Source: Brachyspira pilosicoli (GTDB lineage: Bacteria; Spirochaetota; Brachyspiria; Brachyspirales; Brachyspiraceae). From it: DNA of 15,622 nt. A program made the translations under genes and the position numbers. Numbering within the stretch: the first letter of the stretch is position 1; the number at the start of each line of letters is the position of its first letter. Under the pieces are notes generated by a model. That model saw only the letters and a list, made by a program, of their open reading frames with translations, searched no databases and was not told the DNA's origin. This document shows, piece after piece, positions 1 to 15,571 of this stretch. The stretch covers positions 1-15,622 of the forward strand of contig NZ_SRZM01000215.1 in assembly GCF_019402445.1 (NCBI RefSeq), written 5' to 3'.

Positions 1-27
1 GTGGGGGTGTGGGGGCTAGTCCCCACA
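1..27. repeat. GC-rich hairpin with GTGGGGG direct repeat
   Basis: Positions 1-15 hold two copies of a GTGGGGG-type heptamer in tandem. Positions 8-14 and 21-27 form a perfect 7-bp inverted repeat (TGTGGGG / CCCCACA) around a six-base loop. This is a striking island of G and C in very AT-rich DNA. Neither strand has a T-run directly after the stem, so it is not a convincing intrinsic terminator. It may be the end of a dispersed intergenic repeat or an RNA structure downstream of a gene lying to the left of the window. The function is unknown. Confidence 0.55.
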
Positions 28-71
28 AATAATAATACTAAAAAAATAAAAAACAATAAATTGGAGTTTAA

Positions 72-1727: not shown

Positions 1728-1754
1728 AAATATATTATAAATTATTTATAAAAA

Positions 1755-1787
1755 ATAAAAGAGTTCTACCAATATAGTAGAACTCTT
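1755..1787 (-). terminator. Intrinsic terminator of pepA, at convergent junction
   Basis: Perfect 11-bp arms lie at 1759-1769 and 1777-1787 (AAGAGTTCTAC / GTAGAACTCTT) with a seven-base loop. Read on the minus strand, the stem is followed by a T-rich tail (TTTTATTTTTTATAAA), which makes it a good terminator for pepA. Read on the plus strand, the tail is A-rich, so it is weaker for the ABC exporter gene, although the stem may still protect that transcript's end. Confidence 0.85.
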
Positions 1788-1808
1788 AAAATATATAATA
1801 ATTATTTA

Positions 1809-3278
1809 TTAATTAATTTCTATTAACTTCTCAATAGTTTTTTCTAACAAATAAACTCCAACACCAGTAGCACCTTTAGTCAAATATTTATCATTAGAAT
1901 CAGATATAGAAGTGCATGCTATATCCAAGTGAGCCCATTTAGTTCCTTCAGTGAAGTATGAAAGAAATTGTGCTGCGGTAATAGTACCAGCATGTCTTCC
2001 GCCAGTGTTTTTGATATCTGCAACATCCGATTTAATTTGCTCTCTATACTCATCAAACATAGGAAGCTCCCATACTCTTTCATAAGTATCATCGCCAGCA
2101 TCTTTAATAGCTCTAGACAATTTATCATCTGTAGAAAGAAGTCCTGTAGCATGTCTTCCCAAAGCTATAGAACAAGCACCTGTTAATGTAGCAATGTCTA
2201 TTATATAATCAGGTTTATATTTATCTATTCCATAAGCAAGAGCATCAGCAAGTATTAATCTACCCTCTGCATCAGTATTAACAACCTCAACAGTAACACC
2301 ATTATACATCTTTAATATATCTCCTGGATTAATAGCACCGCTTCCTGTTTTGTTGTCTGTTAGAGGGCAAATAGCAGTAACATTAGCATCAAGGTTCATA
2401 TCAGCAGCCAAAAATAAAGCCCCGCAAACTGCAGCAGCACCAGCCATATCATCTTTCATTCCAAGCATACTATCAGCAGGCTTCAAACTCATTCCGCCAG
2501 TATCAAATGTTATACCCTTACCAACTAATACTATATTTTTTTTAGCCTTAGGCTTTTTATATTGCATGCAAAGTAATCTAGGCGGATTTTTACTTCCAGC
2601 ATTAACACCTAATATACCATTCATCTTTAGTGTCTTTAATTGTTTTTCATCTAATATAGTAACAGTTATTTTTTTCTTCTCAGCAATCTTTTTTGCTCTA
2701 TCTATAAATGTTAAAGAGTTAATAATATTGCTAGGTTCATTAACCATATCCCTAGCCCAGCAAATATGCTCAGATATATTAGAAGCAATATTAATAGCAT
2801 TTTCTGTATCTTTTTTATGGTCAGAAACAAGTAAAATATTATTAATATTGTTTTTCTCTTTAAGTCTTTTCTCTCCAAAATGATAATTAAAATTATAAGA
2901 AGCTAAAAACATTCCTAAACAAAATTGTATATAAGATTCCTCAGAACCAATTTCAGCAAATAATTCTGCCATATCAACTTCTATATCAGATATATGAAGC
3001 TGATTCATTATGCTTATTAAAGAAGCTCCTGCATTTTTCCAAGTTTCATAAATATAATTTTTCACTTCTTTGTAAGTAATATAAATTACTCTAGTATTAC
3101 TAGAAAAAGCAAATGCAAATGGAGTTGATATAGTATAATATTTGTCTTTTACTAAACTGTTAAATAATTTTATATACTCATCATTAAATGTGCAAACTTT
3201 TGGTTTTTCTTTTTCAACCTTAACAAAGATTGCTACTGTATCTTTTTTTATAAAATTGCTTGTATGTTTGAGTTTCAT
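1809..3278 (-). CDS. pepA: Leucyl aminopeptidase (peptidase family M17)
   Basis: This is a cytosolic, two-metal exopeptidase that removes N-terminal residues from peptides in protein and peptide turnover; the family usually forms hexamers. The protein has 489 residues, the usual length. The C-terminal catalytic domain is clear: K254, D259, K266, D277, D336, E338 and R340 match E. coli PepA K270, D275, K282, D293, D352, E354 and R356 with a constant offset of 16. NTDAEGRL is at 334-341. The N-terminal domain (~1-160) is more divergent, as is common. Minus-strand AAAGGA just upstream of the ATG supports the start. Transcription probably begins at its own promoter (3317-3344), which overlaps the end of the preceding gene, and ends at the 1759-1787 hairpin. 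Confidence 0.95.
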   Translation of the reverse strand: MKLKHTSNFIKKDTVAIFVKVEKEKPKVCTFNDEYIKLFNSLVKDKYYTISTPFAFAFSSNTRVIYITYKEVKNYIYETWKNAGASLISIMNQLHISDIEVDMAELFAEIGSEESYIQFCLGMFLASYNFNYHFGEKRLKEKNNINNILLVSDHKKDTENAINIASNISEHICWARDMVNEPSNIINSLTFIDRAKKIAEKKKITVTILDEKQLKTLKMNGILGVNAGSKNPPRLLCMQYKKPKAKKNIVLVGKGITFDTGGMSLKPADSMLGMKDDMAGAAAVCGALFLAADMNLDANVTAICPLTDNKTGSGAINPGDILKMYNGVTVEVVNTDAEGRLILADALAYGIDKYKPDYIIDIATLTGACSIALGRHATGLLSTDDKLSRAIKDAGDDTYERVWELPMFDEYREQIKSDVADIKNTGGRHAGTITAAQFLSYFTEGTKWAHLDIACTSISDSNDKYLTKGATGVGVYLLEKTIEKLIEIN

Positions 3279-3316
3279 CGATATGTCCTTTAAGAATTCT
3301 ATAAGATATTTTAAAT

Positions 3317-3344
3317 ATTATATATAATGTTTATTTTATGTCAA
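3317..3344 (-). promoter_or_regulatory. Consensus sigma-70 promoter of pepA
   Basis: On the minus strand, TTGACA (3339-3344) is followed after 16 bp by TATAAT (3317-3322), placing transcription start near 3310, about 30 bp before the pepA ATG. The -35 box abuts the stop codon of the upstream hypothetical gene. Both hexamers are perfect. The slightly short spacer and the AT-rich background leave a small chance of coincidence. Confidence 0.75.
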
Positions 3345-3884
3345 TTAATTAATTTTTAAATTAACATAATCTACAGATAAATCATTTTTAGTTTTACTTA
3401 TTACTAATTTATACTTATCTCCATTATGAGTATAAATCTCTGCTAAATCATCACCATTAGAGTCTTCTATACGCTCAATTTCTAATGCTATATTATTGTT
3501 ATCTAAATTTTTAAATATACTACTTAAAGCCATATCAATATTATTAGTGATATTAAGTGTAATCTGCTCTATTTTTTTATCCGAAATAAAAACATTAATT
3601 TCTGCGTTATTCTCATATACATTTATATCTTTTTTTAAAATATTATTATAAATCATATTTCTATCTATATTAAATAAATTAGATAAATCATCAAACGATG
3701 TTGTAAAAGAAAGGGAAGCCAAAGACTTTACCTCCCCATTTACACAATAGACTATATCACTATAAGAAAAAGGACGAACCATATTTTTTTTATCATACAC
3801 GGCTTTATTTTTATGTATGATATTCAGTATCATTATACCAAATATTATAAAACATACTAATACTACAAACTTTACGAATCTCAT
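3345..3884 (-). CDS. Membrane-anchored hypothetical protein
   Basis: I do not recognise this 179-residue protein. A hydrophobic segment at residues ~4-23, preceded by basic residues, looks like an uncleaved signal anchor. The rest (~25-179) is hydrophilic, rich in Asn, Asp, Ile and Lys, and would lie outside the cytoplasmic membrane. No lipobox follows the hydrophobic segment and no catalytic motif is visible. The gene starts 34 bp after the ComFB-domain gene in the same direction, so the two are probably co-transcribed. The ribosome binding site is weak, consistent with translation helped by the upstream gene. Alternating short hydrophobic stretches suggest a beta-rich fold, but this is only an impression. 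Confidence 0.7.
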   Translation of the reverse strand: MRFVKFVVLVCFIIFGIMILNIIHKNKAVYDKKNMVRPFSYSDIVYCVNGEVKSLASLSFTTSFDDLSNLFNIDRNMIYNNILKKDINVYENNAEINVFISDKKIEQITLNITNNIDMALSSIFKNLDNNNIALEIERIEDSNGDDLAEIYTHNGDKYKLVISKTKNDLSVDYVNLKIN

Positions 3885-3918
3885 TAATCTACAATAATAT
3901 AATTAACAAATATTTTAT

Positions 3919-4578
3919 TTATTTATTTTCTATAAGCGATATATCATTAACTTCTTCAACTGAAAATAATGGCATATCTCCAGCATTATAATATTCAGGC
4001 TGCACAGTAAAAGTTAAAGAACTTTTAAACTTCTGATAATTCTCAGCTTCTACTACTATATCTAAATTAACATCTATCTTTTTATTAGAATCTGTTTTTT
4101 GTGGCATAAAACAAAACATATATTTACCAGCCACATTTTTAGCAACTATAGCAGGATTAGGGAAATTTACTCCATATCCTTTTAATAAAGCATTATTACT
4201 AAACATATAAACCTTAGCACTCTCTATTCTGTCAGTATTATTAGAAGCGAATAAGTTACCCATTATACTAGGATAAGTAATATAATAACCACTTTCTTCT
4301 ATAACCGGTATAGTATCTGAAGCATTACTCTCTCTTCTTTTTGTAACAACCTCGCAAGCTTGAGATATAATATTTAAAACTTCTTTATTATCTTCTATAG
4401 GGTCTTTATAGCTATATAATACCCCCCTAGCACTTGTAACATATTCTGGTTTTACTCTATTTAATGTATATGCAATAATGTCCATACGCATATTGCTATT
4501 AACTGGAATATTTTTCTTCTGTAAATATGCATCTGCCAACTTAGAAACTTTTTGTTCCATTAGGTTTACTAAATACAT
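3919..4578 (-). CDS. ComFB-domain protein with unknown C-terminal domain
   Basis: This 219-residue protein has an N-terminal part (residues ~3-57) that resembles the late-competence ComFB domain: VNLMEQKV at 4-11, then MDIIAYTLNRVKPEYV at 32-47 and the SARG segment at 49-52. In better known members, a Cys-x-x-Cys pair precedes the equivalent of MDIIAYTLN. Here those cysteines are absent, with Asn and Met around positions 28-31. Some ComFB proteins have been reported as cyclic dinucleotide receptors, so a signalling role is possible but not shown. The C-terminal two thirds (~85-219) are unfamiliar and look beta-rich. The start is well supported by minus-strand AAGGAG seven bases before the ATG. 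A perfect consensus promoter lies at 4606-4634, so this gene leads a two-gene unit with the membrane-anchored hypothetical. Confidence 0.7.
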   Translation of the reverse strand: MYLVNLMEQKVSKLADAYLQKKNIPVNSNMRMDIIAYTLNRVKPEYVTSARGVLYSYKDPIEDNKEVLNIISQACEVVTKRRESNASDTIPVIEESGYYITYPSIMGNLFASNNTDRIESAKVYMFSNNALLKGYGVNFPNPAIVAKNVAGKYMFCFMPQKTDSNKKIDVNLDIVVEAENYQKFKSSLTFTVQPEYYNAGDMPLFSVEEVNDISLIENK

Positions 4579-4605
4579 AACAAAACTCCTTAAACTTTAT
4601 AGTAC

Positions 4606-4634
4606 ATTATACAAAATTATATATTATTTGTCAA
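4606..4634 (-). promoter_or_regulatory. Consensus sigma-70 promoter of ComFB-domain gene
   Basis: On the minus strand, TTGACA (4629-4634) and TATAAT (4606-4611) are separated by exactly 17 bp. This is a perfect promoter, with a start expected near 4600, about 20 bp before the AAGGAG-preceded ATG at 4578. Such a site suggests strong or constitutive expression. Confidence 0.85.
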
Positions 4635-4655
4635 AGTAAATATAATAAATATATG

Positions 4656-4690
4656 TAAAAATGAAAGGGCTAAACTAATAGTAAAGCCCT
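4656..4690 (-). terminator. Intrinsic terminator of purC
   Basis: Arms AGGGCT (4666-4671) and AGCCCT (4685-4690) pair, and an inner ACTA/TAGT pair extends the stem across a 2x2 internal loop. On the minus strand the stem is followed by TTTCATTTTTAC. It lies between the purC stop and the promoter of the next gene, so it insulates the two. Confidence 0.8.
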
Positions 4691-4714
4691 CTTAAAATAA
4701 CAATATAAATTTAT

Positions 4715-5431
4715 TTACATATTATTAAGTCTGTTCAATACTTCTATATAAGCCTCTTCTATAGAACCTAAATCTCTTCTAAATCTATCTTTATCTAATT
4801 TCTTTCCAGTAGCCTTATCCCAGAAACGGCAAGTATCAGGTGTAATTTCATCAGCCAAAAGTATTTCACCTTTTGAGTTCTTACCAAACTCTACTTTAAA
4901 ATCTACCAAAGTAATGCCTATTTTGTCTAAAGCTTCTTTTAATAAATTATTTACTTTAGAAGTTACTTCGTATATATATTTTAATTCATCATAAGTAGCA
5001 AGTTTCAAAGCAACAGCATGATGGTCATTAATAAGTGGGTCACCATATTCATCATTCTTATAACATATCTCAAAAATAGTATTAGGTGGAACTGTACCCT
5101 CTTCTATACCAAGTCTTTTAGCCATAGAACCTGCTATTAAATTTCTTACTATCACTTCCAATGGAAATATTTTTACTTTCTGACAAAGTTGCTCTCTATC
5201 AGATAGCTTTTCTATAAAATGTGTCTTAACACCATTCTTCTCTAACATCTTAAAGAGTAAAGTAGTAATTTCATTATTCATAACGCCTTTATCTTTTATA
5301 GAACCTTTCTTCTCACCGTTAAAAGCAGTGGCATCATCTTTGTAATAAACTATTATTTCATCAGCATTATCAGTAGAATAAACCTTCTTTGCTTTACCTT
5401 CATAAATCATTTCTTTTTTTTCTTTGGACAT
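4715..5431 (-). CDS. purC: SAICAR synthetase
   Basis: This is phosphoribosylaminoimidazole-succinocarboxamide synthase, the ATP-dependent step of de novo purine synthesis that joins aspartate to CAIR. The 238-residue length is normal for the monofunctional bacterial enzyme. Family hallmarks include YEGKAKKVY at residues 10-18, the KGSIKDKG nucleotide segment at ~42-49, the VRNLIAGS substrate motif around 96-103, and [12 protein letters not shown] near the C-terminal active site. Minus-strand TAGGAG precedes the ATG. It is flanked by its own terminator on one side and by the sulfoquinovose operon terminator on the other, so it is a single-gene transcription unit. No other purine gene is nearby. 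Confidence 0.96.
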
Positions 5432-5464
5432 ATTTGTACTCCTATTTTATTAAAACGATTATTT

Positions 5465-5472
5465 ATTATATA
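5465..5472 (-). promoter_or_regulatory. Probable -10 element of purC promoter
   Basis: Minus-strand TATATAAT lies about 35-40 bp before the purC ATG, in the gap after the upstream operon terminator. The -35 position at 17-bp spacing reads TAGTAA, a poor match, so the promoter is placed mainly by its -10 box and position. Confidence 0.5.
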
Positions 5473-5511
5473 CCCTTTTTTATTATTTTACTACTTATTT
5501 TTTGCATGAAT

Positions 5512-5548
5512 AAAAATAAGGATATCTTATTATAAAGATATCCTTATT
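5512..5548 (-). terminator. Terminator of sulfoquinovose operon
   Basis: A perfect 14-bp inverted repeat (AATAAGGATATCTT at 5515-5528, its complement at 5535-5548) encloses a six-base loop. On the minus strand it runs into TTTTT (5512-5516). It sits just past the dctP stop and before the purC promoter, marking the end of the nine-gene operon. Confidence 0.9.
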
Positions 5549-5569
5549 GTGAATATTATATTTGGAAGT

Positions 5570-6697
5570 TTAATTGATTAACTGATTATTAATACCGTCA
5601 ATTCTTTTTGAATGTTCAGCTACTTTTTGTTCTAATTTTGCAATCCAAGGAGAAACCTCTTCACCATATTGTTCTATAAGCCAATCTTTAACGGGTTTGC
5701 TTTGTTCTACAAACATATTAAGTTCTTCTTCAGAAGGGTTATAAACAACACCACCTCTAGCTCTAAAATCATTATATGCTTGTATTTGTTGATGTTTAGG
5801 ATAAGAGTTTAAATAATTTCTCATATCTTCGAAAGCATCTAATACAATTACTTGTAAATCTTCAGGCATAGAATTAAGTTTATCACTGTTTATAAACCAA
5901 AAAGCAGAAAGATAAGCATGGTTATCTAATATAATATAATGTAGAGTTTCATGAAGCTTAGCATTAACAATATCAACTATACTTAATTTTACACCATCAA
6001 CAACACCAGTAGAAAGAGAAGTATATATTTCAGAATAAGGCATAGCTGTAGGAGAGCCTCCCAAAATAGTAACCAATTCCTGTTGAACTTGAGAAGGAAC
6101 AGTTCTTATTTTTAATCCTTTTATATCGCTAGGAACTTTTATTTGCTTTTTAGAAGTAGTAGCAAAATCTCTCCAACCGCCACTTGCAGCAATCATCACT
6201 AATTTTAATTGAGGATATTTTTCAGCTATAGATTTTCTAGCTGCATCAACTATTTCAGGGTCAGATAATACAGCCTCAGCAACTCTGTCATTAGGGAACA
6301 AATAAGGTAAACCAAAGGCATTAGCAGGAGTCCAATATGAAGCTAAGTCATCAGTAGCCTTAAATATATCTATATTTCCAGACATTAAAGCATCAATACC
6401 CTCTTTTCCGCTTGCAGCTAATTGACCATTAGGATAAATTTTTACGCCAACTCTGCCGTTAGATTTATTTTCAACTATAGTTTTAAATAATAAAGAAGCT
6501 TGATGGTTATAACCGTCTGTATTATGGTCATGTGAAGTAACTAAAATAAATTCTGCATTCTCTGGAGCTTGCATATAATCCAAATTATCAGGTCCAGATG
6601 ATGTTCTAGTTCCTCCTGATCTTGATTCTCCTAATTTAGTACAAGAACTAAAATTAATCATAGATAATATAAATATTAAAACAAATAGTTTTTTCAT
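5570..6697 (-). CDS. dctP: TRAP solute-binding lipoprotein (DctP family)
   Basis: This is the substrate-capturing protein of a tripartite (TRAP) importer; the permease subunits are the first two genes of the same operon. It has 375 residues. A lipoprotein signal peptide ends at C19 (NFSSC), so the mature protein is probably tethered outside the inner membrane, as in other spirochaetes. Family features follow in order: LKIRTVPS with the ligand-binding arginine at R198, the GGSPTAMPYSEIYTSLSTG segment at 213-231, and GVVDG at 231-235. The usual Gln-Glu after GVVDG is Val-Lys here. In characterised members the arginine pairs with the ligand's carboxylate; here it could pair with the sulfonate of sulfoquinovose or its glyceryl glycoside. 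That substrate is inferred from the operon. Minus-strand AAAGGAG precedes the start. Placement at the far end of the operon, away from dctQM, is unusual. Confidence 0.9.
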   Translation of the reverse strand: MKKLFVLIFILSMINFSSCTKLGESRSGGTRTSSGPDNLDYMQAPENAEFILVTSHDHNTDGYNHQASLLFKTIVENKSNGRVGVKIYPNGQLAASGKEGIDALMSGNIDIFKATDDLASYWTPANAFGLPYLFPNDRVAEAVLSDPEIVDAARKSIAEKYPQLKLVMIAASGGWRDFATTSKKQIKVPSDIKGLKIRTVPSQVQQELVTILGGSPTAMPYSEIYTSLSTGVVDGVKLSIVDIVNAKLHETLHYIILDNHAYLSAFWFINSDKLNSMPEDLQVIVLDAFEDMRNYLNSYPKHQQIQAYNDFRARGGVVYNPSEEELNMFVEQSKPVKDWLIEQYGEEVSPWIAKLEQKVAEHSKRIDGINNQLIN

Positions 6698-6722
6698 ACC
6701 GAACTCCTTTTTTATTTAATAA

Positions 6723-7406
6723 TTATTTATTTGTGTTTGTATTGTCCCAAGCATTTGTAAATATACCAAGTCCTTTATCTGTGAATGGGTGTAACATAGC
6801 TTCTTGATATACTGCAAGACCGCAAGTAACAGCATCAGCACCATGTTTAAAAGCATGTGCAACTTGAGAACCACTTCTTAAAGCAGCAACTAATACTTTT
6901 GTTTGAGCACCTACAGCTTTATAAGCTTTGATGATTCCTTCTATATATTCTCTAGTGTCCTCTCCAGAAGATTCTTTCCAACCTACAAATGGTGAAACAA
7001 ATAAAGATTTTGCATGAGCAGCATATAAAGCCTGTGATACTGAAAATACTAATGTTAAATTAGTTCTTATTCCCATTTCTTCTAATTCATGAGCACTTTG
7101 TATTCCTGCTTCAATACAAGGCAATTTAATAACAAAGTTTTTTGAAATAGAAGCTATATCTTTAGCCATAGTAACCATCTCTTTAGCATCATTTAAATGA
7201 GGATTTACTTCTACAGAAATAGGGAAATCTTTATAATCTTTAAAACCTGTATTAGAAGCCCATTTAGCTATATCTTCTATTACTTTGTAAAATGGCTGAC
7301 CGCTTGCTTGTATATGTCTTGGGTTTGTAGTAATACCATCGATTCTAAATAATTCATAAGCCTTTTTAATTTCGTCTAATTTAGCACTGTCTAAGAAAAA
7401 TAACAT
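6723..7406 (-). CDS. sftT: 6-deoxy-6-sulfofructose transaldolase
   Basis: This is a class I aldolase-fold enzyme of the short transaldolase/FSA group (227 residues). The probable role is to cleave 6-deoxy-6-sulfofructose, release 3-sulfolactaldehyde, and transfer the glycerone unit to glyceraldehyde-3-phosphate to form fructose-6-phosphate. Visible features are D6 (LDSAKLDE), GITTNP at 24-29, the Schiff-base lysine K94 in FVIKLP, the NLTLVFS strand at 116-122, and VSPFVGW at 137-143. Two positions differ from ordinary FSA and TalC enzymes: the residue after TTNP is Arg (R30) rather than Ser, and the usual VGR is VGW. Both could help accommodate a sulfonate in place of a phosphate; that is inference. 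The sulfo- assignment rests on neighbours, above all the GH31 sulfoquinovosidase. An ordinary fructose-6-phosphate aldolase or transaldolase is the alternative. Minus-strand AAGGAG supports the start. Confidence 0.82.
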   Translation of the reverse strand: MLFFLDSAKLDEIKKAYELFRIDGITTNPRHIQASGQPFYKVIEDIAKWASNTGFKDYKDFPISVEVNPHLNDAKEMVTMAKDIASISKNFVIKLPCIEAGIQSAHELEEMGIRTNLTLVFSVSQALYAAHAKSLFVSPFVGWKESSGEDTREYIEGIIKAYKAVGAQTKVLVAALRSGSQVAHAFKHGADAVTCGLAVYQEAMLHPFTDKGLGIFTNAWDNTNTNK

Positions 7407-7454
7407 AATTTAACTCCTTAATTTTTTATTTTTTGTTTTGTTTTTTTATTTATT

Positions 7455-8522
7455 TTATTTTTCTAAAGGTAAAGTTGAAGTCATACCCGAATGAGTTAAA
7501 GTAGGGAAATCATTACCTATAGTAAGTATTTCTTTAGAGCCTTCTAACATCAAAAGAGTCTCTTCAGCTTTAGTTCCTATCAAAGTTGGGTTATAAGCAA
7601 TCATTTGATTTTTATAAATAGTTTCTTGCAAAGTAGGTCTTAATATCCATTCTCTAGATTCAAAACCTATAGCTCCGCCTTGATGATGATTAAAATATTC
7701 TGTTTCAACTCCTTCTTCTTTATAAGTTTTTACCATAAAGTCCCATAAAGTTTTAGAGTCTGTACCTATATTTGTTTCATTCATCAAAAGATTATTTATT
7801 TTGCAAATAGTTTCATCTCTTTTCTTTTCTTGTTCAGTTCTTTTTCTAAAATAAAGAATTCTTGATAAAGCAATAACTACTCCTTTATATCTAGGACATA
7901 AAACAGCCATAAATCTTTCATTAGCTATTTTACTTGTTGCTAAAGGGTGTCTATAAAAATTTAAATTATCATCGCTTGCTATAAGAAGTACAGGAAGCTC
8001 TATATTTTCTTTACCGAAAGCATATCTTATTTCCGCCTCTATTTGGTATTCAGTTAATCCTGGCTTTATATTTTTCATTGTCTTTTCTAATATAGAAGCA
8101 GAAGTTTTACCCAATTCTCTAGCAATAGCTATTTGGTCATCAAATAAACTATATCTAAGTTTTTTTATGTTGGCAAAATCTTCTTTAACACCATTAAAAC
8201 CAAAATCACCATTAACCTTTTTTCCGCTAATAAGTTCAGCAACATTTTTTGCAGGTCCATCAACCCAAGAGTAAGATTTAACAGGTATAACTCCTTTAAA
8301 AATCTCTCTCTCTATTCTAGGTGCTTCATTGTTTGAAGTGTAGTAAAATGCATCGTTCTTATCAACATAAATATATCCCAAACCAAAATCAGTATAAAAA
8401 TTCATAGAGCTTTCACATTGAGAGAACCAAGCAAATGAACTTCTTCTATTTAATATAACAGCATCTATATTGTTGCTATGAATATAATCTCTTAATCTTT
8501 GTATAGCTTCATTTACAGCCAT
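7455..8522 (-). CDS. M24/creatinase-fold protein lacking most metal ligands
   Basis: This 355-residue protein has the two-domain layout of proline peptidases and creatinase: an N-terminal creatinase-like domain (~5-130) and a pita-bread M24 domain (~135-350). M24 metallopeptidases bind two metals through Asp, Asp, His, Glu and Glu. Here the Asp-bearing segment reads CPRYKGVVIALSR (209-221) with no Asp, the usual GHGIG is HQGGAIG (280-286) so the metal His is Gly, and the first Glu of the C-terminal pair is Asn (AYNPT, 309-313). Only the last Glu, in the KAEET segment at 318-322, persists. H192, H279 and H280 remain. It is therefore unlikely to be a standard aminopeptidase; a metal-independent hydrolase or a binding role is possible, as creatinase shows for this fold. 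It is embedded between the sulfoquinovosidase and transaldolase genes, so a role in sulfosugar use is inferred but unknown. Minus-strand AAGGAG supports the start. Confidence 0.8.
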   Translation of the reverse strand: MAVNEAIQRLRDYIHSNNIDAVILNRRSSFAWFSQCESSMNFYTDFGLGYIYVDKNDAFYYTSNNEAPRIEREIFKGVIPVKSYSWVDGPAKNVAELISGKKVNGDFGFNGVKEDFANIKKLRYSLFDDQIAIARELGKTSASILEKTMKNIKPGLTEYQIEAEIRYAFGKENIELPVLLIASDDNLNFYRHPLATSKIANERFMAVLCPRYKGVVIALSRILYFRKRTEQEKKRDETICKINNLLMNETNIGTDSKTLWDFMVKTYKEEGVETEYFNHHQGGAIGFESREWILRPTLQETIYKNQMIAYNPTLIGTKAEETLLMLEGSKEILTIGNDFPTLTHSGMTSTLPLEK

Positions 8523-8545
8523 AATATATTCTCCTTAATAAAAAA

Positions 8546-10543
8546 TCATAAAGATTTTAAACTTCTAAATAAATCTAAATATTTTGAAGATTTTTTGATA
8601 AATACAGGAATCTTTCCTACACCGCTTTCTATAGTTATAGTTTGTCCGCCGTCATATTCTTTATCGCTCCACAAATGAACCCACTTATCATTAGGTAAAT
8701 AAACTTCCCAATTATCTGTTTTTTCTTTCCATACAGGAGCAACCAAAATATCACTTCCCAACATATATTCATAATCTATAGAATAAGATTCTTTATCATT
8801 TTCATACTCAAAAAATAAAGGTCTTATAAGAGATATACCTTTCTCTTTTGCATCTTTCATAAAATTAATTCTATATTCTTTTAATGCTCTAAATATTCTC
8901 ACCATCTTAGAAAGAAGAACCATTGTAGTTGGAGAATCATATAACTGTATATTATCATTAGGTCTATTAGTTTCATGAGAACGCATAGTTGAAGTGAATG
9001 CAGCAAACTCTATCCATCTATCATTCAATTCAGGAGTTCTCACATTTCCAAATAATGATGTATATCCGCCTATATCGCTATGATGATAACAGAATCCGCT
9101 TACAGCAGAAGATAAAGCAGCAGGTATTACAGTTGCTATACCATCATCTTTAGTAAAGTCAACGCTTTGGTCTCCAGCCCACAATACAGGAGCATATTGC
9201 TGAGCACGGCTTCCAGAAGCTCTCATAAATATAAATATGTCCCCTTTTTTGCCTGCCATATCCAAAGCCATATCATTAACTTTAGCCCATAATACAGGCC
9301 ATTCATTATGCTTCTTCATAGCAACAGATTCAGATAATTTTACATCTATAGGTAAATACTCTCCAAAATCTGCCATCCAGCCTTCTATACCATAATCCAA
9401 CATCTCTTCTACAAGTATTCTCTTAGCAAACCATTTGCATACCTCTTCCCTTGTAAAATCAGGTATTCCGCAATAGAACTCACCAAAATCAACTTCGTAT
9501 ATCTCGCCTTTATCGTTTTTAGCTAAATATCCCAAATCTTTAGCCTCTTTAAATAAAGCTCCATCAATAGCTAAATAACAATTTGAATAAGCTAGGAAAC
9601 GTATGCCTTCTTCTTTTAACTTTCTTACATTTTCTTTAAAATCAGGATATCTCTTAGGGTCATGTGCCCAGTTCCACATAAGTCTTTGTCCAAAACTAGT
9701 CATTCTTATTCCTTCCCAGTCTTGTATCCAAACACCAGTAACACTAACACCATAAGATTTTAAATCATTCAATACTCTTTTAATTTTATCCCAACCGCCC
9801 TGTATTCCTACTACAATTCCATCATTCATCCAATCAGGAATATTAGGTTGCCTTCCAAAATATTCAGTGAAAGATTCCATTAATTTGTAGAAACTATCCT
9901 CTTTCCATAAAAGTATTTGTTCAGGTACTTCCCAAACATGTATCTCTGTAAAGTTTTCATTTCTAAAATCAAATTCACTATAAGCATAACTATCAGAAAA
10001 TAAAGAATATTTTTTACTAGACATATATGAAGGCTGAGGATAATTAGTATTCCAGTAATCTCCACCTGCCATACCAGTAGAATCAGACATCCAAGTAACA
10101 TATGTGTTTTTGTTTCTACCAACACCAGGCTCAGATGACCATATAGGAAATAATTTTCCACGCAAATTAAAATGACTCATCTGCTCGCCAAGTCCATACA
10201 TATGTTCATCTTTATCAGATTTTATTCTTATCCAAAATCTAGTATACTCTTTTGATGCCTTTAATTTTAATGCACATTTAGTCTTTTCTTCATTGAAAGT
10301 AAGAATTAAAGAGTCATCTCCATAATAAAACTCTATACCCTTATCTGTTTCTTTGAATAATTTTAAAGGTATCTTAGAATCTTCTAAATTTGTTATTCTA
10401 AAGTTTCCTCTATACATCAATATATCTTCTCTACCGTTTCCAACAAATATAGCAGGATTATCTTTTGAATGTTCTAATATCAAAACATCATCTAAGAATA
10501 TTTCTAATTTATCATTATTAATTTTTTTTGTAAGCTTAGGCAT
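8546..10543 (-). CDS. sftG: Sulfoquinovosidase (GH31, YihQ type)
   Basis: This retaining alpha-glycosidase releases sulfoquinovose from sulfoquinovosyl glycerol or the sulfolipid. It has 665 residues, with an N-terminal beta-sandwich (~1-225), a GH31 barrel (~235-560) and C-terminal beta domains. The nucleophile is D392 (MADFGEYLP) and the acid/base is D458 (WAGDQSVDF). Residues that E. coli YihQ uses for the substrate and its sulfonate are present at equivalent spacing: Q274 (WIQDW), R287 and W290 (FGQRLMW), Y494 (DIGGYTS) and H523 (RSHE), matching Q288, R301, W304, Y508 and H537. This separates it from ordinary alpha-glucosidases and xylosidases. There is no signal peptide, so glycosides must be imported intact. 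Minus-strand AAGGA precedes the start. The 108-bp gap to the preceding isomerase gene, the widest within the operon, holds repeats described separately. The symbol follows the Bacillus sft nomenclature; the same function is named yihQ in E. coli. Confidence 0.93.
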   Translation of the reverse strand: MPKLTKKINNDKLEIFLDDVLILEHSKDNPAIFVGNGREDILMYRGNFRITNLEDSKIPLKLFKETDKGIEFYYGDDSLILTFNEEKTKCALKLKASKEYTRFWIRIKSDKDEHMYGLGEQMSHFNLRGKLFPIWSSEPGVGRNKNTYVTWMSDSTGMAGGDYWNTNYPQPSYMSSKKYSLFSDSYAYSEFDFRNENFTEIHVWEVPEQILLWKEDSFYKLMESFTEYFGRQPNIPDWMNDGIVVGIQGGWDKIKRVLNDLKSYGVSVTGVWIQDWEGIRMTSFGQRLMWNWAHDPKRYPDFKENVRKLKEEGIRFLAYSNCYLAIDGALFKEAKDLGYLAKNDKGEIYEVDFGEFYCGIPDFTREEVCKWFAKRILVEEMLDYGIEGWMADFGEYLPIDVKLSESVAMKKHNEWPVLWAKVNDMALDMAGKKGDIFIFMRASGSRAQQYAPVLWAGDQSVDFTKDDGIATVIPAALSSAVSGFCYHHSDIGGYTSLFGNVRTPELNDRWIEFAAFTSTMRSHETNRPNDNIQLYDSPTTMVLLSKMVRIFRALKEYRINFMKDAKEKGISLIRPLFFEYENDKESYSIDYEYMLGSDILVAPVWKEKTDNWEVYLPNDKWVHLWSDKEYDGGQTITIESGVGKIPVFIKKSSKYLDLFRSLKSL

Positions 10544-10564
10544 ATTAAAATCCTTATTTATTAG

Positions 10565-10610
10565 GCATAATACTTAAAAATAATTTTTTATTATTCTTTA
10601 AGTATTATGC
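10565..10610. repeat. Long inverted repeat between isomerase and glycosidase genes
   Basis: Perfect 14-bp arms (GCATAATACTTAAA at 10565-10578, complement at 10597-10610) enclose an 18-base AT loop inside the operon. In the direction of transcription (minus) no T-run follows, so full termination is unlikely. On the plus strand TTTTT follows, but no plus-strand gene lies to the left that would need it. It may act as an mRNA processing or stability element that uncouples glycosidase expression from the upstream genes. Confidence 0.7.
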
Positions 10611-10630
10611 TTTTTGAAATTATTGATGAT

Positions 10631-10663
10631 TATGCTTTAATCAGGCTTCAATTAGGCTTCAAT
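10631..10663. repeat. Three 11-bp tandem repeats over the isomerase stop codon
   Basis: Three consecutive 11-bp units lie at 10653-10663, 10642-10652 and 10631-10641 (minus-strand forms ATTGAAGCCTA, ATTGAAGCCTG and ATTAAAGCATA). The first unit encodes the last Ile-Glu-Ala of the isomerase and part of its TAA stop. The other two are downstream. This looks like slippage duplication at the gene end, with the third copy decayed. Confidence 0.75.
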
Positions 10664-11971
10664 CCACTCCCAACCTTTTATTTTGCATAACAATCTAAAT
10701 TTCTCTATATAATCTCCATATACCATAACAACATGGTGAGCAAAACCATTGTCTAATAAAGTGTCATATACAGCCTTAACACCCTTATCAAATTTGCCTT
10801 TTGCATAAGTACCTTTAAGAAGTTTATCCATATATACAGCCTTACCTTTTTCAGCAAATATTCTAGTTTTACCTAAAGCACTGTCTATACGAACAATATT
10901 GAAATCACCTTCTTTTAATACAAATCCTGTAGTAACACCTTTTCCGCCTGCAAAATATGTATCTAAAGTAGGAGTACATTTTTTATTAGTAAGATTGCAT
11001 GGAGCTACTCCGCAGTGCCATAATAAAGCAGTATCCTCTTCAAAATCAACCTGAGAGAAGTCAGCAGAATAAGGAGTTTCTATATCAAGAGCCTTACAAA
11101 CTAACATGCTTAAAGCCAACATAGCATCGCCTTCACAAGCTAAAAGATATTTTTCTTTAGCTATTATAGACATAGCAGCACATGGAGCTATACCATAACT
11201 TTGAGCATATTCAGGCCAGCATCTTACTGCTAAAGCATCTATATGATTAGAATCAACAAATTTTTTGATTGATACACATAATTTTGCAACTCTCTTAATT
11301 TGTTCTTCATTAACATCATCACAGTTAAAGAAACCTTTTATCTCATCTAAATATTTTTTAGCTTCTTCATCGCTTACCTCTTGATTGTACATATCAGCTA
11401 TTTGATAATATTCCAACATAGCACCTGTACTTTTGAAGCTAGTTAATTCATCAAAAGCCAAGTTAAAAAATCCTTGAGCACGTGAACCAACTAAAGCTAT
11501 TTTTGCTATCTCCATTGCTTTTACCATTCTTAAAGCATCTATCCAATTAATATCTGGTAAAGGAGCAACAACGTGATGTACAAATTTTACACCTGCTTTA
11601 AAAAGGTTAGATTTATTTAAATGCACACCGCAAGCTGAGTTGTATCTTATTTTTCCGCCATCATATGGTGCCTCAGGAAGTCCCCATAAATGTACAGGTT
11701 TTTTAAGTTTTTCTTCTATAATAAGTGCTAAATGTCCAAGGTGAAAAGTTCCGCTTGTAATAATAACACCATCTACCAATTCTGAAGATAATTTATCAGC
11801 AGCTTTTTTTGCCTCTTCTACTTCAATTACAGGCTCATCAATGATAACCCAATCAACGTTTTCTATTTTTTTTAATTCTGATTCTTTGCTTTTAAACTCT
11901 TTCCAAGCACTTTCATAGTCAAAAGTTTTTCTTAAAAGACATACTAAACCAATTTTTACTTTACCTTTCAT
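10652..11971 (-). CDS. sftI: Sulfoquinovose isomerase (fucose isomerase-like)
   Basis: This is a probable aldose-ketose isomerase converting sulfoquinovose to 6-deoxy-6-sulfofructose. The 439-residue protein has the layout of L-fucose/L-arabinose isomerase-like enzymes: an N-terminal Rossmann-like half (~1-165, with GVIITSGTFHLGHLAL at 68-83) and a C-terminal metal-binding half. Likely metal or acid-base residues are E254 (CWPEY), E280 or D282 (ACEGDA) and H319 (LLWHCGVAP); which acidic residue binds metal cannot be settled by eye. It is much shorter than true FucI (about 590 residues). No fuculose kinase or aldolase gene is nearby, arguing against fucose use. A fucose-isomerase-like protein is the isomerase type I recall from Firmicutes sulfo-transaldolase clusters, unlike the YihS-type isomerase of the sulfo-EMP pathway. 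Minus-strand TGGAGG supports the start. The function is inferred from family plus operon. Confidence 0.82.
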   Translation of the reverse strand: MKGKVKIGLVCLLRKTFDYESAWKEFKSKESELKKIENVDWVIIDEPVIEVEEAKKAADKLSSELVDGVIITSGTFHLGHLALIIEEKLKKPVHLWGLPEAPYDGGKIRYNSACGVHLNKSNLFKAGVKFVHHVVAPLPDINWIDALRMVKAMEIAKIALVGSRAQGFFNLAFDELTSFKSTGAMLEYYQIADMYNQEVSDEEAKKYLDEIKGFFNCDDVNEEQIKRVAKLCVSIKKFVDSNHIDALAVRCWPEYAQSYGIAPCAAMSIIAKEKYLLACEGDAMLALSMLVCKALDIETPYSADFSQVDFEEDTALLWHCGVAPCNLTNKKCTPTLDTYFAGGKGVTTGFVLKEGDFNIVRIDSALGKTRIFAEKGKAVYMDKLLKGTYAKGKFDKGVKAVYDTLLDNGFAHHVVMVYGDYIEKFRLLCKIKGWEWIEA

Positions 11972-12000
11972 TTTTATAATCCTCCATTTTTAAAAAGTTA

Positions 12001-12870
12001 TTATTTATTAGACATATCTTTTACAGCTTTATATGTAGCTGAAAAATCTTCTTTTCCTAAATTCATTTCCATAGCATGGTCATATACTTTCTTTGTGTTT
12101 TCCATACCATTTAATTTAAGATTAGATTCTTTAGCTAATCTATCAGCTATATAAACATCTTTATGCATATTTTCTACAGAGAAAGCAGTATCATATTTAT
12201 TCTCAGCTATATTTTTATACTTGCTTGATAAATAGAAATTCTGTCCTCCGCCATAAGATATAGCAACCTCAAATGTAGCAGGGTCTATTCCAAATTTGCT
12301 AGCTAATAAAATGTTTTCGTTTACACCATTTTGTATTTGAGCTACCAAATTATTGTGGCATGCTTTCATTACAAGACCAGCTCCATTGCCTCCCAAATGA
12401 ATAACATTATTACCCATGCGTAAAAGCAAATCTTTTATTTTTTCAAAAGTAGCTTTATCTCCGCCAACATATATTCCTAAAGTTCCCTCTATAGCAGCAG
12501 CCTTAGATTTTACTAAAGGACAATCAAGCATAATAGCCCCTGTTTTTGATACCTCTTTTGATACATCTATAGAAACTTGAGGGTCTATTGTAGACATATC
12601 AACCCATATCTTTCCAGATTTCAAAGCAGGCATTATCTCTTTTGATAAAGATAAAACATGTTCGCTTTTTGGTATTATAGAAAATATAACATCAGTCTTC
12701 TCTACAACCTCTTTTGATGATGAAGCCCAAGTTGCTCCTAATGATTCAAACTCTGACTTTTTACCGTCAAATAAATCATAAACAAATACTTTATCATCTT
12801 TACCTTTTTTTATTATATTTTTACACATTGGGTCACCCATTATACCCAAGCCTATGAAACCTATATTCAT
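12001..12870 (-). CDS. 3-sulfolactaldehyde reductase (beta-hydroxyacid dehydrogenase family)
   Basis: This 289-residue NAD(P)-dependent enzyme belongs to the 3-hydroxyisobutyrate dehydrogenase family, which includes YihU, the sulfolactaldehyde reductase of E. coli. The probable reaction is reduction of 3-sulfolactaldehyde to 2,3-dihydroxypropane-1-sulfonate, recycling reduced cofactor. The Rossmann motif GLGIMG is at 7-12, the substrate loop DCPLVKSKAAAIEG at 116-129, and the catalytic lysine K169 with N173 is in GAGLVMKACHNN. In YihU an arginine (R123) in the substrate loop contacts the sulfonate; here the aligned residue is K121, with a further lysine at 123, so a basic pocket is kept. The start has minus-strand AAGGAG. 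Alternatives are a 3-hydroxyisobutyrate or tartronate semialdehyde reductase, but the sulfoquinovosidase and transaldolase neighbours favour the sulfonate substrate. Confidence 0.82.
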   Translation of the reverse strand: MNIGFIGLGIMGDPMCKNIIKKGKDDKVFVYDLFDGKKSEFESLGATWASSSKEVVEKTDVIFSIIPKSEHVLSLSKEIMPALKSGKIWVDMSTIDPQVSIDVSKEVSKTGAIMLDCPLVKSKAAAIEGTLGIYVGGDKATFEKIKDLLLRMGNNVIHLGGNGAGLVMKACHNNLVAQIQNGVNENILLASKFGIDPATFEVAISYGGGQNFYLSSKYKNIAENKYDTAFSVENMHKDVYIADRLAKESNLKLNGMENTKKVYDHAMEMNLGKEDFSATYKAVKDMSNK

Positions 12871-12899
12871 AATTCTCTCCTTAAATTTTTATATATTTT

Positions 12900-13643
12900 T
12901 TATTTTATTAATTGACTAACTTGATTAAATATTGTAATTCCTCCAGCAACTATAAGAACTATATTCAATATATATTCAAAAGTTGTTTTAGAAATTTTAT
13001 CTGCTAATTTGTTTCCATAAACTATTGCCGCTATCAAAAAAGGAATATTAATAAGTGTATACTTTATTACTTCAGGAGTATAAGCACCTGTTAATATACT
13101 TTGTATAAAAGTTGCAAAGTTTAGTATTATCCATAAAAGAGATAAAGTAGCTCTAAACTCCTGTTTGTCTGTAAGCATTATACTAGCGTAAATTACTATT
13201 AAAGGACCTCCTGATACAAAAGCACCCTGTATAATACCGCCGGCAAATAACAATAAATATCCAACCAATTTAGGTATATTATTTATTTCTAATCCTCTTA
13301 ATTTTGCTATTCCAAGTCCACCTGCAAATATCATAAGAACACCTAATATCATTATTAATTGTTGCTGCGGAAGTTTACTATATAATAGATATCCAAAAGG
13401 AAGCCCTAATGCTGATATTCCGATTATTATTAAACAAGTTTTTAAATTCAAATGCTTGAATGTTTTTAAAAGTACGTATCCTGGCTGTATTAAACCCATA
13501 ACTAAAAGCACAGATTTTGCTGCAGATATACCTATTAATGATATTACAAAAGGCATAGCAATTATGGTACATCCAAAACCAGTTAAAGCACTTATAAAAT
13601 GAGTGGAAGCAATAATTAATATTAAAACTATGTAGCTTATCAT
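12900..13643 (-). CDS. TauE/SafE family sulfonate exporter
   Basis: This is a 247-residue integral membrane protein with about seven to eight hydrophobic segments and the internal duplication typical of the TauE/SafE (DUF81) family. The paired half-motifs are ALTGFG (19-24) in the first half and GAFVSGGP (140-147) in the second. Members recur in sulfonate catabolic clusters, where they export sulfite, sulfolactate or other sulfonates. No desulfonating enzyme is encoded in this operon, so the most likely cargo is dihydroxypropanesulfonate, the expected end product. The gene lies 41 bp after dctM and 29 bp before the reductase gene. Its ribosome binding site is weak (TTTGGAAA). Confidence 0.87.
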   Translation of the reverse strand: MISYIVLILIIASTHFISALTGFGCTIIAMPFVISLIGISAAKSVLLVMGLIQPGYVLLKTFKHLNLKTCLIIIGISALGLPFGYLLYSKLPQQQLIMILGVLMIFAGGLGIAKLRGLEINNIPKLVGYLLLFAGGIIQGAFVSGGPLIVIYASIMLTDKQEFRATLSLLWIILNFATFIQSILTGAYTPEVIKYTLINIPFLIAAIVYGNKLADKISKTTFEYILNIVLIVAGGITIFNQVSQLIK

Positions 13644-13684
13644 AAATATTTTCCAAATCTATTTTTTATCAATATTCTCTCAAA

Positions 13685-14968
13685 TTACATTCCAAGCAAA
13701 TAAGGTAAACCCATTACTAAGTCAGGGAAGAATGATATTAAGAATATAACTATTATCTCTGACAATATAAAAGGCCAAGCCTCTTTTACTATATCTTCCA
13801 ATGGCACTTTAGATATATCTGATGACATAAATAATACCAATCCCATAGGAGGAGTAACCAAACCTATAGTAACGTTAATACTCATAACAACCCCAAAATG
13901 TATAGGGTCTATGCCCATAGATATTAGAGAAGGAGCAAATATTGGAGCAAATATCAATATAGCAGGTCCAGCATCTAAGAACATACCTATTACAAAAAGC
14001 ATCATATTAACAATAAAGAATGCTAAATAAGGATTATCTCCCAAAGAAAATATTATTTTACTTGCAAACATTGATATAGGTGATAGAGAAGCTACAACAG
14101 CAAACCCAGTAGCAAAAGCAACCATCAAAAGTATTGAAGATGATGATATAGCAGCATCTCTAAATAATGGAAATAATGCTTTTAATGGTATAGATCTATA
14201 TACTAATAAAGCTATTATTAAACCATAAGCCACAGCTACAGATGCAGATTCTGTAGGAGTAAATATACCACCATATATACCACCTAATATTATTACAGGT
14301 GTAAGTAATGCTAAAAATGAATGTTTTGTTTGTATAACTCTCTCTTTAAATGTTGCCTTAGGTCTTCTAAAATTAAAACCTTTCTTTGAACATAATATAT
14401 AATTCACTATCATCAAAGATACACAAAATAAAAGTCCAGGTATTATAGAAGCAATAAACATAGCACCCACTGAAACATTCATTGTAAATGCATATATAAT
14501 CATAATTCCAGAAGGCGGTATTATAGGACCTAAAACAGTTGCAGCAGCAGTAACAGCAGCAGCATATTTTTTTGTAAATCCATTTTTATACATTTCAGGT
14601 ATTAACATGTTTCCTATAGCAGATGTTGCAGCTACAGCAGAACCAGTCAATGCTGAAAATAATGTTGCAGATAATATAACAACGTGACCTAAACTTCCTT
14701 TAACATGCCCTACCATAACTTGAGAAAAACCTATTATCTTTTCTGTGATTCTTCCTTTACCCATAACAGCACCAGCTAATATAAAGAAAGGCAAAGCAAG
14801 CAATGTAAAACTCTCAAGCGATATATTAATTCTATTGAACATAGAAGATACCATATTTATTTGTCCTGCCATCATAACCTCTATTAAAGGAGCAGCAGCT
14901 AAGGCAAATAAAACAGGAAGACCTAATATCATTAAAGCTAAAAATATAATAAAAAACATTATACTCAT
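13685..14968 (-). CDS. dctM: TRAP transporter large permease subunit (DctM family)
   Basis: This is the ion-coupled transport channel of the tripartite importer, with 427 residues and roughly eleven or twelve membrane segments, a normal length. Family motifs are TGSAVAATSAIG at 108-119, GPIIPPSG at 147-154 and, in the second half, GLVTPPMG at 369-376. The two PP-containing loops are the paired re-entrant regions of the ion-transporter superfamily, likely sodium-binding. Minus-strand TAGGAG precedes the ATG. It follows dctQ closely and should form a complex with it; the matching binding protein is encoded at the operon end. Inferred cargo is sulfoquinovose or sulfoquinovosyl glycerol. Confidence 0.93.
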   Translation of the reverse strand: MSIMFFIIFLALMILGLPVLFALAAAPLIEVMMAGQINMVSSMFNRINISLESFTLLALPFFILAGAVMGKGRITEKIIGFSQVMVGHVKGSLGHVVILSATLFSALTGSAVAATSAIGNMLIPEMYKNGFTKKYAAAVTAAATVLGPIIPPSGIMIIYAFTMNVSVGAMFIASIIPGLLFCVSLMIVNYILCSKKGFNFRRPKATFKERVIQTKHSFLALLTPVIILGGIYGGIFTPTESASVAVAYGLIIALLVYRSIPLKALFPLFRDAAISSSSILLMVAFATGFAVVASLSPISMFASKIIFSLGDNPYLAFFIVNMMLFVIGMFLDAGPAILIFAPIFAPSLISMGIDPIHFGVVMSINVTIGLVTPPMGLVLFMSSDISKVPLEDIVKEAWPFILSEIIVIFLISFFPDLVMGLPYLLGM

Positions 14969-15001
14969 TTGAAAACTCCTAAATTAAACCAACAGTGTAG
15001 A

Positions 15002-15571
15002 TTAATTAACATTAGTATTATTATTATCTTCATCTGAAGAGGCAAATGGATCTTGCAAAAATAAATTGGCATAATCAACATTAAATAAATAACATAAAGA
15101 TACTATCAATTTCTGCAATGATACTGTTATAGTAAAAAATAGAGATATTGGCATTACAACTCTCACTACTGCCAAACTTATAGGAAGCAAATTCGCATTA
15201 ATACTCATTCCCTGTTGGAAAGAAGTTATTGAAAAAGGAAAATATACAACTGCTATAAATACAATAAAACAAATATATACTATATCAAATATATATTTTA
15301 TCTTTGTGTTTTTAAATCTTCCATATACTAATTCCATTACTACGTTTTTATCAGCATAAACCAAATAAGGTAAACAAAGATATGACATCCATACCATCAA
15401 ATAAACAGCAAACTCCTCAACCCATCTTAAAGGCGACTTCAAAAAATATCTCAATACAACTTGAACAACAACAGATATAGTCATTATTATTAATGTAACA
15501 GTAGCAATATTAACAAAAAATTTACATATAAACTTATGAATATTATCAATAAATAGAATAATAGTTTTCAT
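15002..15571 (-). CDS. dctQ: TRAP transporter small permease subunit (DctQ family)
   Basis: This 189-residue membrane protein has four hydrophobic helices, as expected for DctQ, which supports the large subunit. The family segment RYFLKSPLRWVEE (41-53), running into helix two with VWMSYL, is clear. The C-terminal tail is polar and Asn/Asp-rich. It is the first operon gene visible, preceded on the minus strand by AAGGGG and an AT-rich leader that may hold the promoter. It cannot be excluded that more operon genes lie beyond the right edge of the window. Confidence 0.9.
   Translation of the reverse strand: MKTIILFIDNIHKFICKFFVNIATVTLIIMTISVVVQVVLRYFLKSPLRWVEEFAVYLMVWMSYLCLPYLVYADKNVVMELVYGRFKNTKIKYIFDIVYICFIVFIAVVYFPFSITSFQQGMSINANLLPISLAVVRVVMPISLFFTITVSLQKLIVSLCYLFNVDYANLFLQDPFASSDEDNNNTNVN

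Follow-up and report, generated by a model that had tools for sequence, protein, structure and literature searches.

The closest described counterpart of the locus reported here is the sulfo-transaldolase (sulfo-TAL or SFT) pathway of sulfoquinovose (SQ) degradation, as encoded in Bacillus megaterium/B. aryabhattai and in gut Firmicutes (SqvA/SftT, SqvD/SftI, YihQ/SftG, and SftR). In this study, a contig of Brachyspira pilosicoli (NZ_SRZM01000215.1; 15,622 nucleotides, hereafter the window for its whole length) was analysed, on which an initial annotation had proposed such an operon. A 2026 review (PMC12890257) assigns sulfo-TAL to Firmicutes, Thermotogae, and Chloroflexi, and the sulfo-transketolase (sulfo-TK) pathway to Spirochaetes; thus, the range already known is wider than the wording of the initial annotation ("described in Firmicutes") implies. 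In two other papers, clusters for the sulfoquinovose monooxygenase (sulfo-SMO) pathway are assigned to Spirochaetota (PMC13372026), and a metagenome-assembled genome (MAG) of Neosphaerochaeta appears in the legend of a sulfo-TK figure (PMC13219744). In the literature searched, whose coverage leaves out most subscription papers, no co-mention of sulfoquinovose and Brachyspira was found, sulfoquinovose was mentioned together with M24 only in a maize proteome paper, and together with a tripartite ATP-independent periplasmic (TRAP) transporter only in a paper on a taurine respirer. The genus Brachyspira lives in the gut and is best known for species that cause disease in pigs, birds, and people.

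Positions 5570-15571 of the window (minus strand) hold a real, intact, and conserved nine-gene operon on the Brachyspira chromosome, very probably an SQ operon of the sulfo-TAL type. The sequence comparison covered the gene set, gene order, family membership, key residues, and conservation in a second Brachyspira genome (G136), and from these we infer the enzyme activities, the direction of transport, and the role of the M24-like protein. In the order of transcription, the products were assigned with Pfam and NCBIfam to DctQ, DctM, TauE, a 3-hydroxyisobutyrate-dehydrogenase-family reductase, a FucI-C isomerase, GH31, M24, TAL_FSA, and DctP, with gaps of 23-108 bp between the nine minus-strand open reading frames (ORFs) (Table 1). 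The five enzymes named in the initial annotation were all recovered as intact minus-strand ORFs of the expected families within this interval, from which it had passed over DctP, DctQ, DctM, and the M24-like gene. The Brachyspira operon shares with the Firmicutes sulfo-TAL system the transaldolase family, the GH31 YihQ, the reductase type, and the TauE-type permease, whereas it differs in the TRAP importer, the second-type isomerase, the extra M24-like gene, the spirochaete host, and a genome without DUF4867/SqvB. Its core chemistry is ordinary; what is new is the host genus, the importer, the isomerase type, and the M24-like companion.

Table 1. Features of the predicted sulfo-TAL operon and its boundaries in the window.
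Feature	Position	Strand	Basis
dctQ, TRAP transporter small membrane subunit	15002..15571	-	Pfam DctQ 73.8 bits
dctM, TRAP transporter large permease	13685..14968	-	Pfam DctM 334 bits; TIGR00786 394 bits, above cut-off
TauE/SafE-type permease, candidate DHPS exporter	12900..13643	-	Pfam TauE 75 bits
Predicted sulfolactaldehyde reductase, sulfo-TAL-locus type	12001..12870	-	Seven other sulfo-TAL loci have reductases 52-58% identical to it
Candidate SQ isomerase, FucI-like, of the second subfamily	10652..11971	-	NF048012 SftI 174 bits (cut-off 700)
Predicted GH31 sulfoquinovosidase (YihQ)	8546..10543	-	PRK10426 946 bits (cut-off 553)
M24-like protein without most metal ligands	7455..8522	-	Pfam Peptidase_M24 38 bits; HHQGG family
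Predicted 6-deoxy-6-sulfofructose transaldolase (SF-TAL/SftT/SqvA)	6723..7406	-	BmSF-TAL 8bc3 259.5 bits; tree
dctP, solute-binding protein of the TRAP transporter, apparently a lipoprotein (lipobox by eye)	5570..6697	-	Pfam DctP 202 bits
Terminator-like hairpin closing the operon	5515..5548	-	14 pairs, loop 6, T-rich tail; z -6.5
Operator-like palindrome half, cut by contig end	15615..15622	-	Inferred from comparison with G136 (L203)

The GH31 protein gave 733 bits against 8r56 and 730 bits against 6pnr. Its residues Q248, Q274, R287, W290, D392, D458, and Y494 correspond to Q262, Q288, R301, W304, D405, D472, and Y508 of Escherichia coli YihQ (7 of 7), the sulfonate-pocket and catalytic residues of that enzyme; the full sulfonate-recognition set that had been claimed for this protein is therefore present. 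According to PMC8397734, the sulfoquinovosidase family is defined by the signature residues of Speciale et al. No signal peptide was seen by eye, so the enzyme would be cytosolic. As a separate observation, GH31 YihQ homologs having Gln where E. coli has Arg301 were found in two other loci (L074, 1192-3099; L123, 10997-13051).

The transaldolase matched BmSF-TAL (8bc3) far better than the best other transaldolase in PDB (at most 123 bits), and against the genome's own ordinary-type paralog it showed 38% identity and 126 bits. Its Lys94 aligns with Lys89 of BmSF-TAL, given as the Schiff-base lysine in the review (PMC12890257). Among 21 SF-TAL rows, one of which is the window transaldolase itself, 64 columns were invariant, and 23 of these differ in the ordinary paralog, including H31, W143, K144, E145, and Q181. 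In a quick tree of 119 rows, many deep branches of which are weak, the protein was nested among SF-TALs, forming a 13-row clade (support of 100 in the Shimodaira-Hasegawa-like approximate likelihood ratio test, SH-aLRT) with G136 and the neighbours P0001-P0011, among them proteins named Brevinema sp. Judged from its sequence, the enzyme is of the sulfofructose type, in agreement with the initial annotation.

The reductase, in comparison with its relatives in sulfo-TAL loci (Table 1), is only 25% identical to E. coli YihU. It has K121-S122 in place of R123-T124, the substrate motif of YihU, so that the YihU-type motif is absent, and it gave 138 bits against PRK15461 of NCBIfam (cut-off, 348). 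The predicted enzyme is thus of the Firmicutes sulfo-TAL-locus type and not of the E. coli YihU type; the earlier label "YihU-like" for this predicted sulfolactaldehyde (SLA) reductase was imprecise. As for the last step, a TauE match was found in 38 of the 80 named SF-TAL loci used as the comparison set. No Gly_radical protein was detected in the draft genome carrying the window (G000; 3 of 14 control genomes were positive), DHPS (2,3-dihydroxypropane-1-sulfonate) routes beyond glycyl-radical enzymes not being searched, so HpsG/HpfG are absent within the limits of the draft. The likely final product is DHPS, the export of which fits both the missing Gly_radical protein and the TauE-type permease. 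The proposal that every step from the glycoside to exported DHPS is encoded stands by sequence for the gene set (sulfoquinovosidase, isomerase, SF-TAL, SLA reductase, and TauE), with the reservation that the isomerase is remote from the canonical SftI.

With these assignments, the TRAP transporter DctPQM would import SQ or sulfoquinovosyl glycerol, from which the cytosolic GH31 enzyme would free SQ, and the FucI-like isomerase would convert SQ to sulfofructose. The transaldolase would then shift a three-carbon unit to glyceraldehyde-3-phosphate, yielding fructose-6-phosphate, which would enter glycolysis, and sulfolactaldehyde. The latter would be reduced to DHPS by the reductase, with regeneration of NAD+ for fermentation, and DHPS would be sent out through the TauE-type permease. 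The M24-like protein is probably an accessory enzyme that works, without a metal, on the sulfonated sugar as it comes in.

The M24-like protein falls in the same Pfam fold family (pita-bread fold) as M24 prolidases and creatinase, and its alignment with the prolidase 1pv9 spans most of its length; unlike the prolidases, it lacks metal ligands, and the similarity is low (38.6 bits). M24 metallopeptidases have five metal ligands (D, D, H, E, and E); in the alignment, the second Asp is replaced with Ala and the His with Gly, the first Asp and the first Glu fall in gaps, and only the last Glu is kept. Because four of the five ligands are gone, the protein is probably not a metallopeptidase; it may resemble creatinase, which is metal-free. 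A homolog search among 1690 candidates gave 21 proteins at E<=1e-3, one of which (P0122, 90% identical) is named Brachyspira sp. In 23 aligned rows, D184, R191, R221, H279, Q281-G-G, R290, N311, K318, and E320 were invariant, which suggests an anion pocket. The gene was directly seen together with GH31, SF-TAL, and isomerase genes in the window, in G136, and in three Bacillota SQ loci (L022, L054, and L073). The Bacillota loci resemble Brachyspira in having the four genes in one stretch, but have a canonical isomerase, a TctA-type transporter, and an M24-like protein of the HHQGG family that is only 24% identical; L054 and L073 also add a transketolase, unlike the Brachyspira operon. In other spirochaetes, it was found with GH31, an SftI-like isomerase, a transketolase, and TauE (L123), or with an isomerase and a transketolase in stretches without a GH31 match (L137 and L145). 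For 7 of the 11 nearest SF-TAL clusters (P0001-P0011), the longest contig is equal in length to that of one of the 14 nearest M24 clusters (P0121-P0134), which implies, short of proof, that the two genes are on shared contigs. As an observation in its own right, HHQGG-family M24-like genes of non-genus spirochaetes (L124-L146) lie next to tripartite transporters of the TctCBA type in 16 of 24 loci.

Could the M24-like protein be an ordinary peptidase, carried along as an unrelated passenger and playing no role in the use of sulfosugars? M24 proteins are common, and the 24 non-genus spirochaete loci divide into 16 with TctA or TctC, 3 that are sulfosugar-like (L123, L137, and L145), and 5 in whose stretch both a Tct transporter and sulfosugar-like genes are missing. 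Against this are the loss of four metal ligands, the coherent conserved set (HHQGG, R191, R221, R290, K318, and E320 in the 23 rows), the gene position kept in G136, and the co-occurrence of its relatives with GH31 YihQ homologs in L022, L054, L073, and L123, and we consider a passenger rather unlikely, with some chance left to it. We tentatively suggest, as a possibility less probable than its opposite, that the HHQGG M24-like family represents an undescribed step of sulfosugar catabolism, namely a metal-independent enzyme of the pita-bread fold for negatively charged sugars, which joined sulfosugar loci from separate family branches (Brachyspira/Brevinema, Bacillota, and other spirochaetes) and has a wider link to import by TRAP and tripartite tricarboxylate transporters (TTT). 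In a tree of 49 rows, the sulfosugar-linked M24s formed three well-supported groups (100/100, 100/99, and 100/100) on long separate branches; note that the program warns of long branches meeting, and that the root is arbitrary. A candidate role, given as a lead only, is SQ ring-opening or mutarotation in place of DUF4867. The M24-like gene occurs without DUF4867 in L054, L073, and the Brachyspira genomes, while L022 has both, and 17 of the 61 isomerase-bearing named loci are without DUF4867, only 2 of the 17 having M24.

Several results weigh against SQ degradation by a sulfo-TAL operon as the function of the locus, and the substrate could be another sulfosugar. First, the isomerase shares 22-25% identity with SftI proteins of the canonical type from SQ loci, in comparison with 46-56% with second-type isomerases, and its score against the NF048012 SftI model is far below the cut-off, which is also missed by three canonical-type locus proteins (360-407 bits). 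Relatives about 50% identical were found in many lineages including Asgard archaea. Second, DUF4867 (PF16161), the putative mutarotase of SQ that 50 of the 80 named loci encode, gave no match in G000 and G136, whereas the positive control G318 gave 244 bits. Third, a DctM match was found in only 1 of the 80 loci, and the TRAP importer is therefore unusual.

These points, together with the extra M24-like gene, would be accounted for if the substrate were not SQ itself but a related sulfosugar (a different epimer, for instance) or sulfonate conjugate. We judge this improbable: the GH31 protein keeps all seven YihQ residues, the SF-TAL and the reductase are of the types seen in SQ loci, and second-type isomerases, found in 9 of the 80 loci, stand beside GH31 YihQ homologs and a reductase in 7 of the 9. 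The canonical isomerase was found in 52 of the 80 and neither type in the rest, several of which are short contigs. Second-type isomerases (46-51% identity) also occur in four spirochaete genomes with SF-TAL (G005, G162, G206, and G215). E280, D304, and H413, which by FucI numbering would be the metal ligands, are invariant in both subfamilies; a PDB search with the window isomerase gave no match. By sequence, it is a member of a remote second FucI-like subfamily and a candidate SQ isomerase; the description as fucose-isomerase-like was right for the family, but the protein is distant from SftI. The place of DUF4867 could be taken by the one Aldose_epim protein in G000. The locus L004 of a Planctomycetota MAG (1041-10291) has SF-TAL, a second-type isomerase, and DctP/Q/M TRAP genes as in Brachyspira; it differs in adding transketolase, Fe-ADH, and DUF4867, in a reductase of only 64 bits, and in having no GH31 or M24 match on its 11-kb contig.

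The genome carrying the operon is a draft of 2.47 Mb in 463 contigs (98.5% complete, contamination 0.19%; the window is contig C130). Window positions 1-5503 aligned at 91-94% to three other genomes of the genus, and each alignment ended at 5493-5503; four further purC loci aligned only near purC, at 83-86% (the 7 loci compared were taken from 25 genomes with a match). Because the flank alignments end there, the operon is a variable block next to a conserved flank of the chromosome. GH31 was found in 2 of 26 genomes of the genus, and SF-TAL in 2 of 31 of the class. G136 has an identical gene order on two contigs with about 88% identical DNA (dctQ-dctM-tauE-reductase-isomerase in L203 and GH31-M24-transaldolase-dctP in L116), and its operon has other neighbours: it is bordered on one side by a LacI gene and RND-type efflux genes, and on the other by a NERD-domain gene. 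That the contig was misbinned and the operon comes from another gut bacterium, as might be supposed from the number of contigs and the rarity of GH31 in the genus, is hardly credible, and was rejected on the basis of the collinear flank on the operon's own contig, the second genome carrying the operon, and the low contamination.

In L203 of G136 (3703-4952), a LacI-family gene precedes dctQ with three exact TAAAACGTTTTA palindromes between them, which suggests substrate-induced control; when one mismatch was allowed, five matches were found in L203, a number reached in 0 of 200 shuffles. The full TAAAACGTTTTA motif had no match in the window, the contig of which terminates with GTAAAAC, as if cut within a TAAAACGTTTTA site. 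Since the contig stops 51 bp upstream of dctQ, a regulator may sit off the contig.

At E<=1e-60, 8 of 392 genomes of the phylum have SF-TAL; two of them are Brachyspira and six are not. The 80 named loci include three from named spirochaete MAGs (L074 with a complete set; L006 and L008 on partial contigs). A spirochaete version of the pathway, as first proposed, is supported by sequence for Brachyspira as a host, but not as the only one. In G318, one stretch holds genes for SF-TAL, the reductase, the canonical isomerase, DUF4867, GH31, and TctA; in G005, SF-TAL and the reductase share a contig, and the isomerase and GH31 lie on a second one; and G200 has SF-TAL with no isomerase match. A single spirochaete origin of SF-TAL was not supported, as spirochaete rows fell in five places of the quick tree. 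Separately, two spirochaete loci (L120, 6891-11580; L121, 5921-11596) have SF-TAL, a second-type isomerase, an MFS_2 transporter, and a Gfo/Idh/MocA-family protein with no GH31 match, and are candidates for a version with a GH188 (NAD-dependent) sulfoquinovosidase.

The hairpin closing the operon lies 22 bp past the dctP stop codon, and 0 of 200 shuffles were equally stable. The flanking genes are unrelated (purC, ComFB-like, leucyl aminopeptidase, and ABC transporter genes), and scanning the window for Rfam families and tRNAs gave no matches. As a side observation, a spirochaete ComFB-domain protein is encoded at 3919-4578, adjoining purC.

If the operon works as inferred, members of Brachyspira can live on the sugar of plant sulfolipid, releasing DHPS, a substrate for H2S producers of the gut. 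The operon adds a TRAP-fed version of sulfo-TAL with a second isomerase, and draws attention to a family of proteins, so far unstudied, that is linked with sulfonated-sugar loci. Gene-based surveys relying on the canonical SftI, DUF4867, or YihU would undercount such degraders.

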